Shown here one piece after another: positions 7,455 to 11,701 of a stretch of 46,729 nucleotides of DNA (positions are counted from its first letter, which is position 1; each line of letters begins with the position of its first letter). The stretch covers positions 1 through 46,729 of the forward strand of contig CACECP010000008.1 in assembly GCA_902558095.1 (NCBI GenBank). Reading direction: 5' to 3'. The position numbers and the translations under genes are program-made. The notes below the pieces were generated by a model. The model worked only from the letters and a program-made list of their open reading frames with translations, did no database searches and was not told where the DNA came from. Source of the stretch: an uncultured SAR86 cluster bacterium. GTDB taxonomy: Bacteria > Pseudomonadota > Gammaproteobacteria > Magnimaribacterales > D2472.

Positions 7455-8305
7455 TGAAAAATAATTCTCTATGGTCAGATGCTTTATACAGATTAACTAG
7501 AAATAAGGCTGCTATGTTTGGAGGATTTATATTGGTGTTGCTAATTTTAGCAGCTGTATTTGCTCCTTGGCTCGCACCGTACTCTTATTCATATCAAGAT
7601 TTAAACCTTGGTGCTAGCCCACCATCCGCTGAGCATCTTTTGGGCACAGATATATTAGGAAGAGATCTTTTAAGTAGGATTTTGTATGGAGCAAGGATTT
7701 CTTTGTTAGTAGGTTTTGTTGCTACAGGTGTTGCATTGGTTATTGGTGTATCTTGGGGAATTATTGCTGGATATGCAGGGGGAAGAGTTGATTCAATTAT
7801 GATGAGAATAGTAGATATTCTCTATGGCCTGCCTTTCATCATTTTTATCATTCTTCTTATGGTTATATTTGGAAGAAATTTATGGCTTTTGTTTGGTGCA
7901 ATTGGCGCTGTTGAATGGCTAACTATGGCAAGAATTGTTCGAGGTCAAGTAATCGGTCTAAAAAATCAAGAGTTTGTATTAGCTGCAAAAGCTATGGGCG
8001 TTTCAAACATGTCAATGTTTAGGAAACACTTACTACCAAATATTTTGGGTCCAATTGCTGTATATGCAACTCTAACCATTCCACAGGTAATGCTACTCGA
8101 AGGCTTTTTAAGTTTTCTTGGTCTTGGTATTCAACCACCAATGAGCAGTTGGGGAACTTTAATAAAAGATGGGGTTGAATCAATGGAAGAGTATAGTTGG
8201 TTGCTTATATATCCAGGCATAACATTTACAATTACATTATTTGCTTTAAATTTCTTCGGAGATGGACTTAGAGATGCACTAGATCCAAAAACCTCTGATA
8301 ACTAA
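7454..8305 (+). CDS. oppC: Oligopeptide ABC transporter permease OppC
   Basis: Second membrane subunit, predicted to pair with OppB. It begins MKNNSLWSDALYRLTRNKAAMFGG, the usual OppC cytoplasmic N-terminus, followed by a first transmembrane segment and the HLLGTDILGRDLLSRILYGARISL motif. The EAA loop is at EFVLAAKAMGVSNMSMFRKHLLPNILGPI. A longer frame opens 30 nt upstream at 7424 inside oppB, but the ATG at 7454 overlaps the oppB stop (TAATG) and gives the family N-terminus, so I use it (283 residues). The stop TAA (8303-8305) shares bases with the stop of the convergent mltD, leaving no room for a terminator or for oppDF. Confidence 0.93.
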   Translation: MKNNSLWSDALYRLTRNKAAMFGGFILVLLILAAVFAPWLAPYSYSYQDLNLGASPPSAEHLLGTDILGRDLLSRILYGARISLLVGFVATGVALVIGVSWGIIAGYAGGRVDSIMMRIVDILYGLPFIIFIILLMVIFGRNLWLLFGAIGAVEWLTMARIVRGQVIGLKNQEFVLAAKAMGVSNMSMFRKHLLPNILGPIAVYATLTIPQVMLLEGFLSFLGLGIQPPMSSWGTLIKDGVESMEEYSWLLIYPGITFTITLFALNFFGDGLRDALDPKTSDN

Positions 8306-9783
8306 AAAGCTCTAATAGCTATTTTTATTATCTGACCCGGCATAAGAGCATCGTCCTCAAAATCATTAATTTCTTTTATACTTTTAACTGTTACATCAAA
8401 TAATTCTGAAATTTTATACAAGTTATCACCTTGTTTAATGGAATATAGAATAGTTCTTTTCTTTGATTCAATATTTCTATGAATATTTTTATTACCGATT
8501 GTAAGTTGCTGTCCAAGTTGCAAGTATGAGTTTTCATTTATTGAATTCATATTTGCTAGGTCTGATACTCCAAGATTATATTTTTTTGCAATATCCCATA
8601 ATGTATCTCCTTCAGAAACTATATGCATCTCATATGGTATAAAAGTATTTGATTTAGTCTTGCTTAGAGGAATAAGAAGGGTGGAACCAATACTCAATAA
8701 ATCATTATTTAGATAATTTATCTGCTTGATAATTCCAACTTCAGTATCATATTTTGATGCCAGTGCCCACAAATTATCACCAGACTCCACGACATGTGAT
8801 ATCCAATTGATTTGGTTGGTATCATTGAATGGATTATCTTCACTTTCAAATAAGTAATATTTTTCAATTGGTATATAAAAAATACTTTGATCTTTTGGAG
8901 CAGATGCCCATTTTGTATAACCAGCATTAAGTTTGTATAAAAGCTCAGGCTTAATATCTAAAAATTCACTTAACGTTATCACCTCAACTTGACCAGGTAT
9001 GCTTATCTTTTGAACAACAGGATTATTAGGAATATCTGGAAGAGTTAATTCATATTTTTCAAAATTAAAAATTAACTCTTTTAGAGCTATATATTTCGGA
9101 ACATATTCTTTTGTTTGATTTGGTAAATTGAGCGACCAGAAATCTGTTTTTAGTCCACGTCTTTTATTCTGATTTATTTTTCTAGATAACAATGTCGGGC
9201 CGGCATTATATGCAGCCAGTGTCAGATAAACGTCTTGATTAAATCTTTCGTATAGATATTTTAAATAATCCACAGCAGCTTCGGTTGATCTATATGGATC
9301 ATGTCTGTCTTCATTCCACCATGTTTTATTAAGCTCATATAGTCTTCCAGTTTTAGGCATAAATTGCCACATACCAACCGCACCTGATGAGGATATTGAA
9401 AACGGATCATAATTACTCTCTATGTAAGGTATTAATGCTAGCTCAATTGGAAGTTTTTCTTTTTCGAGCTCATCAATAACATAGTAAATAAAATAATATG
9501 AATCATTGAGATATTCCTCAAATTTATCAGCATCTTTTAAATGCATATTCATATAAAATAATATTTGCTCATTAATATAATCTTCTTTGTTTTCTGTATT
9601 GTTATTTAAGATATATTCCCAAATATCTTTATAAGTTATGGTTTTATTTTCAGGCTGTAAGATACTATTTATTGGAATGGATTCCACTATATCTTCTTTA
9701 TTATGATCCTCTACAACTCCCATCTGTTGACAGCCAACTATAAGAATTAAAATAATAAATATTGTTAATAGTTGTCTTTCCAT
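8302..9783 (-). CDS. mltD: Membrane-bound lytic murein transglycosylase D with three LysM domains
   Basis: Outer-membrane lipoprotein that cleaves peptidoglycan glycan strands to 1,6-anhydromuropeptides. The signal peptide ends in lipobox IVGC with Cys18. The SLT domain carries the catalytic Glu122 in ALIPYIESNYDP, followed by SSSGAVGMWQFMPKTGR and the AAYNAGP motif. Three LysM repeats that bind glycan follow in the last 180 residues, each beginning with a (V/I)xxGDxL(W/Y) pattern: VVESGDNLW, IVSEGDTLW and SIKQGDNLY. E. coli MltD has two LysM repeats. Its start overlaps the end of gloB by 19 nt, so the two form a leftward operon. The stop shares four bases with oppC on the other strand. Confidence 0.95.
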   Translation of the reverse strand: MERQLLTIFIILILIVGCQQMGVVEDHNKEDIVESIPINSILQPENKTITYKDIWEYILNNNTENKEDYINEQILFYMNMHLKDADKFEEYLNDSYYFIYYVIDELEKEKLPIELALIPYIESNYDPFSISSSGAVGMWQFMPKTGRLYELNKTWWNEDRHDPYRSTEAAVDYLKYLYERFNQDVYLTLAAYNAGPTLLSRKINQNKRRGLKTDFWSLNLPNQTKEYVPKYIALKELIFNFEKYELTLPDIPNNPVVQKISIPGQVEVITLSEFLDIKPELLYKLNAGYTKWASAPKDQSIFYIPIEKYYLFESEDNPFNDTNQINWISHVVESGDNLWALASKYDTEVGIIKQINYLNNDLLSIGSTLLIPLSKTKSNTFIPYEMHIVSEGDTLWDIAKKYNLGVSDLANMNSINENSYLQLGQQLTIGNKNIHRNIESKKRTILYSIKQGDNLYKISELFDVTVKSIKEINDFEDDALMPGQIIKIAIRAF

Positions 9784-10529
9784 TCTCTCAGCGCGGTAAA
9801 AGTTTCAAAGTCATTATCAGATACATTAAATTTTTCATTAATTTTATTTTTAATTGATACATTATCGCATCTTAAAAATGGATTTATCATAAGTTCTTTG
9901 TCTAATGTGGAGGGAAGAGATGGATTTATAGATGTATTTAAACTATTAACACGATCAAATTCATTTAATAGATCTATATTTTCAGAATCGACTTCGATGG
10001 CAAATTTTAAATTTGACAAAGTATACTCATGACCACAATAAATCTTAGTATTTTTTGGTAAGGATGATAACTTATTCAGACTATTAAACATTTGCTTATG
10101 AGTGCCCTCAAATATTCTCCCACAACCTGCAGAAAAAAGTGTGTCACCGCAAAAGAGAATCGGCATATTTTCGTTAAAAGAATAAAAAGCAATATGATCT
10201 AAAGTATGACCAGGAACTTCTATAACCTCAAATTCTATACCTAAAATAGATATACGATCTGAATCTTTAACACTTTTGTTAATTTCAACAATATTATTTT
10301 TAGGCCCATAAACATCTATTTCAAATCTATCAGTAAGATCTTTTAGACCATTAGTGTGATCATAATGATGATGAGTAACTAATATTCCCTTAAGATCTAT
10401 TTTTTTTTCGTCAATAAGTTTAATTATTTTGGATGATTCACCAGGATCAATTACTATTGACCCTTCATTAGTTGTTACTAACCAAATATAATTGTCTTCA
10501 TATGCTTTTATTGGTTCCACGCTTAACAT
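9765..10529 (-). CDS. gloB: Hydroxyacylglutathione hydrolase (glyoxalase II)
   Basis: Metallo-beta-lactamase-fold enzyme that hydrolyses S-lactoylglutathione to lactate and glutathione, the second step of methylglyoxal detoxification. The binuclear metal motif is H53-x-H55-x-D57-H58 (VTHHHYDHTNGL). Further ligands are in VPGHTLDHIAFY, LFCGDTLFSAGCGRIFEGT and IYCGHEYTLSN. Length 254 residues is normal. A TTG two codons upstream extends the frame, but ATG 10529 gives MLSVEPIKAYEDNYIWLV, aligning with the E. coli start, and it lies 6 nt from a TAGAAT box. It is divergent from rnhA, an adjacency also common in gammaproteobacteria. mltD follows with overlap. Confidence 0.95.
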   Translation of the reverse strand: MLSVEPIKAYEDNYIWLVTTNEGSIVIDPGESSKIIKLIDEKKIDLKGILVTHHHYDHTNGLKDLTDRFEIDVYGPKNNIVEINKSVKDSDRISILGIEFEVIEVPGHTLDHIAFYSFNENMPILFCGDTLFSAGCGRIFEGTHKQMFNSLNKLSSLPKNTKIYCGHEYTLSNLKFAIEVDSENIDLLNEFDRVNSLNTSINPSLPSTLDKELMINPFLRCDNVSIKNKINEKFNVSDNDFETFTALREWKDNY

Positions 10530-10535
10530 ATGCAA

Positions 10536-10543
10536 ATTCTAAT
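10536..10543. promoter_or_regulatory. Overlapping divergent -10 boxes, gloB and rnhA
   Basis: On the minus strand TAGAAT (10541 down to 10536) ends 6 nt before the gloB ATG. On the plus strand TCTAAT (10538-10543) ends 8 nt before the rnhA ATG. The whole space between the two start codons is 22 bp (10530-10551), so each promoter's -35 must lie inside the opposite gene. Neither gene has a Shine-Dalgarno sequence. Both mRNAs are therefore predicted to be leaderless or nearly so. Confidence 0.5.
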
Positions 10544-10551
10544 TTAATTTT

Positions 10552-10983
10552 ATGAAAACAGTAAATATTTATACCGATGGTGCATGCAGAGGAAACCCAG
10601 GAGATGGAGGTTGGGGTGTGCTTATAGAATATGAAAACATAACTAAAGAATATTTTGGTGGTGAAAGAAATACCACAAACAATCAAATGGAATTAAAAGC
10701 TGCTATTGAGGCATTAAAGGTTCTCAATGAACCATGCGAAGTAAATTTAACAACAGATTCAAAGTATGTAATGCAAGGAATAACATCTTGGATTAAAAAC
10801 TGGAAAAAAAATAATTGGAAGAATTCATCAAAAAAAGATGTAAAAAATAAAGATCTTTGGATTGAGCTTGATAATTATGTCTCAAAACATAATGTAAAAT
10901 GGAATTGGGTAAAAGGGCATTCTGGTCATGAAAAAAACGAAATCGCAGACTTATTAGCAAATAAAGGTATAGATAATATTTAA
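10552..10983 (+). CDS. rnhA: Ribonuclease HI
   Basis: Endonuclease that removes the RNA strand of RNA-DNA hybrids. All active-site residues are visible: D9 ([12 protein letters not shown]), E47 (NNQMELKA), D69 (LTTDSKYV) and D133 (EIADLLAN), with H123 in [14 protein letters not shown]. The basic-protrusion segment with [11 protein letters not shown] is present, as in E. coli RNase HI. Length is 143 residues. dnaQ starts 1 nt after the stop, so they are co-transcribed; rnhA-dnaQ linkage is widespread in gammaproteobacteria. Confidence 0.97.
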
Positions 10984-10984
10984 T

Positions 10985-11701
10985 ATGGCTAAAAAATATA
11001 TAGTTCTTGATACAGAAACAACTGGTCTTGAAGTTAAGGCTGGCCATAGAGTTATTGAGATTGGAGCTGTCCTTTTAAATGATAGAAAAAAATCTGAACA
11101 TCATTTTCATACATATTTAAATCCATCAAGACTAATAGACGAAGAAGCTTCAAAGGTTCATGGTATTACGAATGCAGATCTTGAAGATAGTCCTTCTTTT
11201 GATGAGGTAGCTGAAGAATTTATTCAATTTATTGAAGGCTCTACCTTGGTTATTCACAATGCACCTTTTGATATTGGTTTTTTAAACAACGAGTTAAAAA
11301 TGGCATCTACAAAGTATCCAAAAATTGAAGATTTATGTGAAGTTGAAGACTCATTGGCTATAGCGCGAGATAAATATCCTGGTCAAAGGAACTCTCTAGA
11401 TGCTCTTGCTCAAAGATTTGATGTAAAGGGTTATGATAGAACTTTTCATGGTGCCTTACTTGATGCAAATATTTTATCAGATGTTTTTATTCAGCTTACA
11501 GGCGGTCAAAGCAAGTTTGAATTTATAACCAATGGAAACACTTTTAAAGAAGACAAGATCAATCATAATGATTTTGATGAAAATCTTCTTAAAGGACTTA
11601 AACTTATTAACGCATCTAAGAGTGAAATAAATTCTCATGAATCAAAACTGTCTGACATAGAAAATAAACATCAAGTTGAAACTATGTGGAGAAAAATCTA
11701 G
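10985..11701 (+). CDS. dnaQ: DNA polymerase III epsilon subunit (3'-5' proofreading exonuclease)
   Basis: Proofreading subunit of the replicative polymerase. The DEDDh exonuclease motifs are visible: Exo I VLDTETTGL with D9/E11, Exo II VIHNAPFDIGFLNNEL, and Exo III with the catalytic His in RTFHGALLDANILSDVF. A C-terminal tail of about 60 residues follows and would contact the alpha subunit; it is less conserved. Length 238 residues is typical. It has no Shine-Dalgarno sequence and follows rnhA by 1 nt. The gltX start overlaps its stop by one base. Confidence 0.95.
   Translation: MAKKYIVLDTETTGLEVKAGHRVIEIGAVLLNDRKKSEHHFHTYLNPSRLIDEEASKVHGITNADLEDSPSFDEVAEEFIQFIEGSTLVIHNAPFDIGFLNNELKMASTKYPKIEDLCEVEDSLAIARDKYPGQRNSLDALAQRFDVKGYDRTFHGALLDANILSDVFIQLTGGQSKFEFITNGNTFKEDKINHNDFDENLLKGLKLINASKSEINSHESKLSDIENKHQVETMWRKI

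Follow-up and report, generated by a model that had tools for sequence, protein, structure and literature searches.

How can two divergent genes each be given a promoter when only 22 bp separate their start codons? The question is raised by the genes gloB and rnhA, which diverge around positions 10530-10551 of a 46,729-nt stretch of DNA from an uncultured SAR86 cluster bacterium (contig CACECP010000008.1 of assembly GCA_902558095.1; hereafter the window), whose host genome amounts to 1.09 Mb in 24 contigs and is 80.3% complete. On the minus strand lie gloB (hydroxyacylglutathione hydrolase, 9765-10529, ATG at 10529-10527; TIGR03413, 318.7 bits against a cut-off of 200.8) and, after it and overlapping its end, an open reading frame for an mltD-like gene (8302-9783; NF008050, 258.2 bits, under the equivalog cut-off of 508); on the plus strand lie rnhA (ribonuclease HI, 10552-10983, ATG at 10552; NF001236, 224.7 bits against a cut-off of 160) and, after it, dnaQ (DNA polymerase III epsilon, 10985-11701; NF004316, 278.2 bits against a cut-off of 196). 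The mltD-like gene is presumed to be co-transcribed with gloB, and dnaQ with rnhA. An earlier note on this DNA had named gloB and rnhA, as the profile matches bear out, and had read the gap between them as one bidirectional promoter for two leaderless mRNAs. Elsewhere in the genome, a 38-nt stretch (G000:C1:49132-49169) resembles window positions 10632-10669, within rnhA, at 87%, a similarity probably due to chance between AT-rich sequences.

Both -10 boxes proposed by the earlier note are present in the 22-bp gap, TAGAAT on the minus strand (10541-10536) and TCTAAT on the plus strand (10538-10543), and they do overlap by four base pairs (10538-10541). Boxes of this kind in a single AT-rich sequence are not beyond chance, because a scan for the sigma-70 consensus over 10300-10800 found 2 promoter-like sites where shuffles give 3.4 (sd 1.8); what raises the gap and its boxes above chance is their conservation among relatives. 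Loci with gloB and rnhA were sought in 60 related genomes (some match in 60 of 60, not all true gloB), in named genomes and through an rnhA search over 203 genomes of the order, which found the gene in 159. We kept 62 loci with RnhA identity of at least 65%, an aligned RnhA start, enough upstream sequence and a distinct 320-nt string, leaving out L108 and L115 (identity), L092 (upstream sequence too short) and duplicates. Removal of four Pelagibacteraceae rows (L126, L127, L128 and L132) gave the 58 loci of family f1, which include near-copies and about half of which come from named genomes without an anonymous family label.

Gap length is conserved in f1: among the 54 loci with a measurable gloB start it is 22 bp in 40, 23 bp in 8, 16 bp in 3, 21 bp in 2 and 20 bp in 1, a count that includes L088, which has a gloB remnant only, and two frameshifted loci whose lengths were set by eye from the sequences (L028, 22 bp; L052, 21 bp). 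In these two loci gloB is split near codon 68 (L028, genome G017) and near codon 99 (L052, genome G013), by sequencing error or early gene decay. The expectation that relatives would keep a gap of 20-23 bp with both boxes was thus borne out in part, with 22 bp in 40 of 54 loci and the gloB box kept, but with 16 bp in 3 of 54 and the rnhA box TCTAAT not kept. Gaps in other families measure 17-20 bp (f4) and, between alignment ends, about 43-48 bp (f3) and about 50-73 bp (f2); divergent gap lengths in the sampled stretches have no sharp peak at 17 or 22.

The leftward box belongs to gloB. A TANNNT hexamer lies exactly 6 nt before the gloB start in 50 of the 52 f1 loci with an aligned gloB start, these being 51 loci plus the remnant L088 (TAGAAT in 34, TAAAAT in 15 and TAAACT in 1), as the earlier note had it for the window; the exceptions are L023 (TAGATT at 5 nt) and L026. 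TAGAAT or TAAAAT stands at 6 nt from gloB in 49 of the 52 while the gap ranges from 16 to 23 bp, and since this spacing stays constant in 16- or 23-bp gaps, the box is tied to gloB. Columns 10536, 10538, 10540 and 10541 of the box agree in 40 of 40 rows, which include L052 (1 nt out of register on the gloB side) and L088; with these two removed, the same columns and 10546 are invariant in 38 of 38. The consensus scan names the same box as one of its only two sites, in the form TTTACT-18-TAGAAT, and the -35-like hexamer TTTACT (10560-10565, minus strand), with its 18-bp spacer, falls in rnhA codons 3-5, its columns agreeing in 39-40 of 40 rows. We call this promoter PgloB. Its upstream contacts had been placed within the coding region of rnhA, and the synonymous sites there are indeed frozen: rnhA codons 2-7 (10555-10572) correspond to -26 to -43 of PgloB, and none of the gene's 124 windows scores lower than codons 2-8, where the observed-to-expected ratio of synonymous entropy averages 0.23; codon 8 alone is free. 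Judged by the -10 spacing and by the signature at -12 discussed below, the gloB mRNA likely starts at the A of its ATG (10529, minus strand) and would be leaderless.

For rnhA, the comparison leads out of the gap and into gloB. A TATAAT (10487-10492, plus strand) in gloB codons 13-15, 60 bp upstream of rnhA, is present in 58 of 58 f1 loci, including five without gloB, and we propose it as the -10 box of the main rnhA promoter, P1. Measured against the sigma-70 consensus, this -10 box is full and the -35 position, TTCATT at a 17-bp spacer (10464-10469, plus strand; 52 of 58 loci), is weak with 3 of 6 bases, and P1 is absent from the sites found by the scan. TATAAT overlaps codons of the GloB motif NYIW and occurs at the same gloB codons in 16 of 17 f3 rows, 4 of 13 f2 rows (the motif being present in 9 of 13) and 3 of 13 f4 rows. 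Since it is partly dictated by the GloB protein, its presence in 58 of 58 loci is weak evidence alone, and the argument is carried by the surrounding block and its survival. This block of 39 bp (10455-10493; CTTCATTAGTTNNNANTAACCAAATATAATT on the plus strand) spans gloB codons 13-25, or -7 to -45 of P1, and most of its synonymous sites are frozen: it holds the lowest seven-codon window of synonymous entropy among the 120 codons examined, with a ratio of 0.14, and keeps the rare codon GGG in 37 of 38 rows, codon 18 being the exception to the freezing. The upstream half, CATTAGTT, is found in 51 of the 58 rows of f1 and is absent from every row of f2-f4 in which the NYIW motif was found, these being the rows tested; the f3 rows carry TATAAT without it. 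A frozen stretch from -7 to -45 is approximately the zone of polymerase contact. P1 would point rightward, because the frozen block lies upstream of the plus-strand -10 box and most synonymous sites vary freely in the zone that a minus-strand promoter would need (10494-10529). From the position of TATAAT, the rnhA-dnaQ RNA is predicted to start near 10500 (about 10498-10501, plus strand), with about 52 nt of leader. The rnhA 5' end expected from the comparative data hence lies far inside the coding sequence of gloB, an outcome that the earlier note had set against its own reading.

Three other roles for this region were considered and rejected. The P1 block as a widespread operator was set aside for its few copies in the window's genome, at 80.3% completeness: AACCAAATATAATT occurs there at 2 exact places and 8 with one mismatch (1 for the backward control), the only other exact copy being at G000:C3:28831-28844, and the upstream pattern CTTCATTAGTTNNNANTAACC is matched exactly at this locus alone and, with 2 mismatches, at one further place. 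A short upstream open reading frame in the rnhA leader (10502-10555; ATG at 10502, 17 codons, with a TGA that overlaps the rnhA ATG) has this form in 14 of 58 f1 loci. RNA structure in the rnhA leader was dropped as well, the leader being less folded than shuffled sequences.

Loci that have lost gloB separate the block from the protein. Five f1 loci (L075, L078, L088, L096 and L100) lack gloB here, and mltD becomes the divergent gene. On a tree of 57 of the 58 f1 loci (L016 has no DnaQ in its stretch) and three outsiders, with a long-branch warning for the outsiders and L101-L107, the fewest changes give three losses, and the well-supported (starred) branches force three. The five loci keep 28-33 of 34 strongly conserved columns in the P1 block, whereas gloB codons 26-43 retain 5-9 of 18 and codons 1-12 retain 5-13 of 18. 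Their identity to the consensus is 0.72-0.92 in the block, 0.34-0.42 in codons 26-43 and 0.28-0.64 in codons 1-12, with L088 itself among the 40 rows that build the consensus; in 12 gloB-containing loci, picked by us for comparison, the same three values are 0.67-0.97, 0.53-0.74 and 0.64-0.86. Because the P1 block outlives gloB, it is held by something other than the GloB protein, and both the synonymous ratio of down to 0.14 and the retention through three gloB losses mark selection on the DNA beyond protein coding. The PgloB block is nearly whole in three of the five (L075, L078 and L088), and its constraint is therefore not for gloB alone.

Given the observed conservation, synonymous constraint, survival and gene identity, we consider it probable that the locus carries two crossed promoters that face each other, PgloB, leaderless, for gloB-mltD and P1, inside gloB, mainly for rnhA-dnaQ. 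In this arrangement we infer the start sites, the activity of the promoters, the direction of P1, the operons and the competition between polymerases. PgloB would fire left from 10529 with its upstream contacts in the first seven rnhA codons, and P1 would fire right from about 10500 with its TATAAT and upstream contacts in gloB codons 13-25, on the opposite strand, its leader of some 52 nt crossing PgloB. The two start sites would face each other about 29 bp apart; as the promoters cross and face, each polymerase would read through the promoter of the other, and the gloB and rnhA RNAs would be complementary at their 5' ends over about 30 nt. Polymerases starting from PgloB and P1 would compete, and with footprints of the usual size the two open complexes would not fit together, so exclusion is likely. 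Mutual exclusion of polymerases, as put forward in the earlier note, is thus plausible, though through another geometry; its claim that both mRNAs are leaderless probably holds for gloB, with its box at 6 nt, and sits poorly with an rnhA box that 14 of 58 loci have lost or shifted.

An alternative interpretation is that the gap is after all a single 22-bp bidirectional promoter, in another register than the one first proposed. The rnhA box of the original proposal, TCTAAT at 8 nt from the rnhA ATG, is not kept: 25 of 40 rows carry its last T, at 10543 (24 of 38 without L052 and L088), and T[AC]NNNT stands there in 27 of 58 loci. Re-registered, the promoter would combine TAGAAT (minus) with TAATTT (10540-10545, plus strand), each 6 nt from its ATG, both mRNAs being leaderless and mutually exclusive. 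This pair is exactly symmetric about 10540.5 and has only the palindromic TA in common, its start sites would lie 23 bp apart, a spacing among those commonly reported in passages of PMC12825309, and columns 10544-10547 are nearly invariant. A TANNNT about 12 bp upstream of the start, the sign of leaderless genes, is found in 50 of 52 loci for gloB and 44 of 58 for rnhA. We nevertheless regard this promoter as unlikely, because in the other 14 loci (ACAACT in 6, ATATTT in 6, TATGAC in 1 and ATATTC in 1) the rnhA box is lost or shifted while the P1 block persists, because TAATTT has only 3 of 6 consensus bases and because the near-invariant columns of the right half, including the constant bases of TAATTT, are also the PgloB spacer positions -15 to -18; passages of PMC10268837 and PMC12825309 place a stimulating T or AT-rich stretch at -18. 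Alongside P1, a weak second start of a leaderless rnhA mRNA from TAATTT is possible.

The constraint around the rnhA start admits a further reading, in which the rnhA mRNA has a leader, the gap and rnhA codons 2-7 are kept because ribosomes land there, and the gloB box is partly coincidental. The conserved stretch from 10536 to 10572 fits the footprint of a 30S subunit around the rnhA ATG, the rnhA leader is less structured than its shuffles (199 of 200 shuffled copies fold as well or better), and the block is retained in the gloB-less L075, L078 and L088; the codon constraint could in that case be a translation-start effect special to rnhA. We hold this to be improbable as well, since codons 2-8 of dnaQ (ratio 0.81) and of gloB (0.80) give no start-of-gene effect and since the box stays 6 nt from gloB while its distance to rnhA shifts with the gap. 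Least probable of all, and quite unlikely, is that the frozen stretch of gloB codons 13-25 is no promoter but serves gloB, or mltD after the loss of gloB, as a signal at the RNA or codon level, for although TATAAT overlaps NYIW and recurs at these codons in f3 and mltD is the divergent gene in the gloB-less loci, the block outlives any gloB frame, its upstream half is missing from every f2-f4 row tested and the frozen sites are not on the side where a minus promoter would need them.

A TANNNT that begins about 12 bp upstream of the start is read as leaderless by Zheng et al. (2011; PMC3160421), and the gammaproteobacterial cases in passages of that survey are mostly Xanthomonadales and Legionellales. 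In 1.45 Mb sampled, TANNNT begins at -12 of the ATG in 46 of 269 divergent first genes of f1, whereas positions average 18.5 (sd 5.8), the genes and starts having been called by a simple script of our own instead of a standard caller. With one gene per protein cluster and the window's pair taken out, the count is 29 of 209 against 13.6 (P = 1e-4; this and the following P values are uncorrected for the number of positions, -12 having been named beforehand by the literature), the highest other position reaching 25. The excess recurs in f1 codirectional genes behind a gap of at least 40 bp (15 of 160 against 7.6, P = 0.01) and in f4 divergent genes (14 of 90 against 5.3, P = 7e-4). Operon-internal genes have an excess at -12 too, in f1 (20 of 411 against 11.3, P = 0.011, with another position at 22) and in f4 (9 of 178 against 4.3, P = 0.03), and the contrast with first genes is therefore only one of degree. 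A mean position weight matrix score per offset is less clear than the TANNNT count, -12 ranking second in f1 divergent, first in f1 codirectional and third in f1 operon genes, and second and fourth in the two f4 first-gene classes. In signature and distance, the SAR86 sample and gloB are like the genes of Zheng et al. (PMC3160421) and the -10 elements next to open reading frames in Deinococcus-Thermus (PMC12340547), as described in passages of both papers; the survey groups named there are Xanthomonadales and Legionellales, unlike SAR86, which its passages do not name. If the proposed reading of the locus is true, it also speaks for leaderless mRNAs in this abundant group of marine gammaproteobacteria.

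Whether promoters are crossed more generally in SAR86 can be judged from antisense -10 boxes early in divergent genes. Counted with one gene per cluster and the window's gloB excluded, an antisense TANAAT falls within coding nucleotides 15-60 in 16 of 46 f1 divergent genes with a gap of 5-45 bp, as against 13 of 136 with a gap above 90 bp (P = 2.5e-4) and 64 of 479 operon genes (P = 4.5e-4); the sense control gives 3 of 46, and gaps of 46-90 bp give 19 of 69. In f4 the counts run in the same direction (7 of 38 against 3 of 42 and 17 of 210) and are not significant. We caution that antisense TANAAT reads ATTNTA in sense, and hydrophobic N-termini (Ile-Leu) could raise the count; the excess in short-gap genes is suggestive of generality. 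On this footing we put forward, tentatively and with more doubt than confidence, that SAR86 routinely crosses the promoters of divergent genes less than about 45 bp apart for compaction, placing one or both within the opening 20 codons of the gene opposite, often with leaderless mRNAs, that such operons would exclude each other through face-to-face polymerases and complementary 5' ends, and that gloB/rnhA would be the conserved type case. If true, the crossed arrangement at gloB/rnhA suggests a way in which streamlined marine genomes, with hardly any DNA between genes, could hold their transcription units apart, and it warns that a promoter search confined to the gap may be looking in the wrong place. 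The locus would also be a case, argued from comparison of sequences, of a promoter selected inside the coding sequence of a divergent neighbour, with frozen synonymous sites and three losses of the host gene survived.

Parts of this arrangement have precedents. In Escherichia coli, dnaQ and rnhA have overlapping divergent promoters; the genes are the same and the promoters overlap as at the SAR86 locus, but there rnhA and dnaQ diverge, whereas in SAR86 they run the same way and diverge from gloB. Bacterial bidirectional promoters were reportedly described by Warman, Grainger and colleagues in 2021. The earlier note had considered so compact a promoter with mutually exclusive leaderless transcription not described, which is too strong, since overlapping -10 elements, starts 18, 10 or 23 bp apart and mutually exclusive polymerases are in print in passages of PMC10268837 and PMC12825309. 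The gloB/rnhA locus of the window's family differs from those promoters in that its better-conserved rnhA promoter lies inside gloB, outside the shared gap, and in that gloB (and, in f4, rnhA, with a leader of 0-3 nt) would be leaderless, a word that occurs 0 times in PMC10268837 and PMC12825309. Excludons, or overlapping 5' UTR antisense RNAs of divergent genes, as treated in passages of PMC4179725, are alike in having divergent genes whose RNAs overlap in antisense at the 5' side; unlike them, the overlap predicted for gloB/rnhA is about 30 nt from the proposed starts, with no long antisense RNA over a gene. Among the matches listed for leaderless and bidirectional promoters, for SAR86 leaderless mRNAs or start sites, for gloB, rnhA and dnaQ promoters and for embedded divergent promoters in the literature searched, no title or abstract dealt with this arrangement. 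Overlapping mutually exclusive promoters, leaderless TA-led genes and excludons are thus already known, and what is new is the proposed embedded arrangement marked by selection.

The idea of a shared promoter fits family f4 better than the window. By eye in the alignment, all 13 f4 rows have one TATAAT whose distance from gloB is fixed, with the rnhA ATG 6, 8 or 9 nt away in 3, 9 and 1 of them; in f2 and f3 the gaps are wider, with TAAAAT-like gloB boxes at varying distances. In L041-L051 (f4 members) and L268-L272, this single TATAAT, common to gloB and rnhA, looks like a bidirectional promoter of the 18-bp kind whose two mRNAs would have little or no leader. Passages on the promoters of Warman, Grainger and colleagues (PMC10268837, PMC12825309) give forms with divergent starts about 18 or 23 bp apart, and f4 is shaped like the 18-bp form. 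Three other divergent gaps of 20 bp, at L185 17269-17290, L236 6288-6309 and L265 16561-16582, have a central ATTATAAT and a TATAAT 6 nt from both ATGs, and are candidate bidirectional promoters for two leaderless mRNAs.
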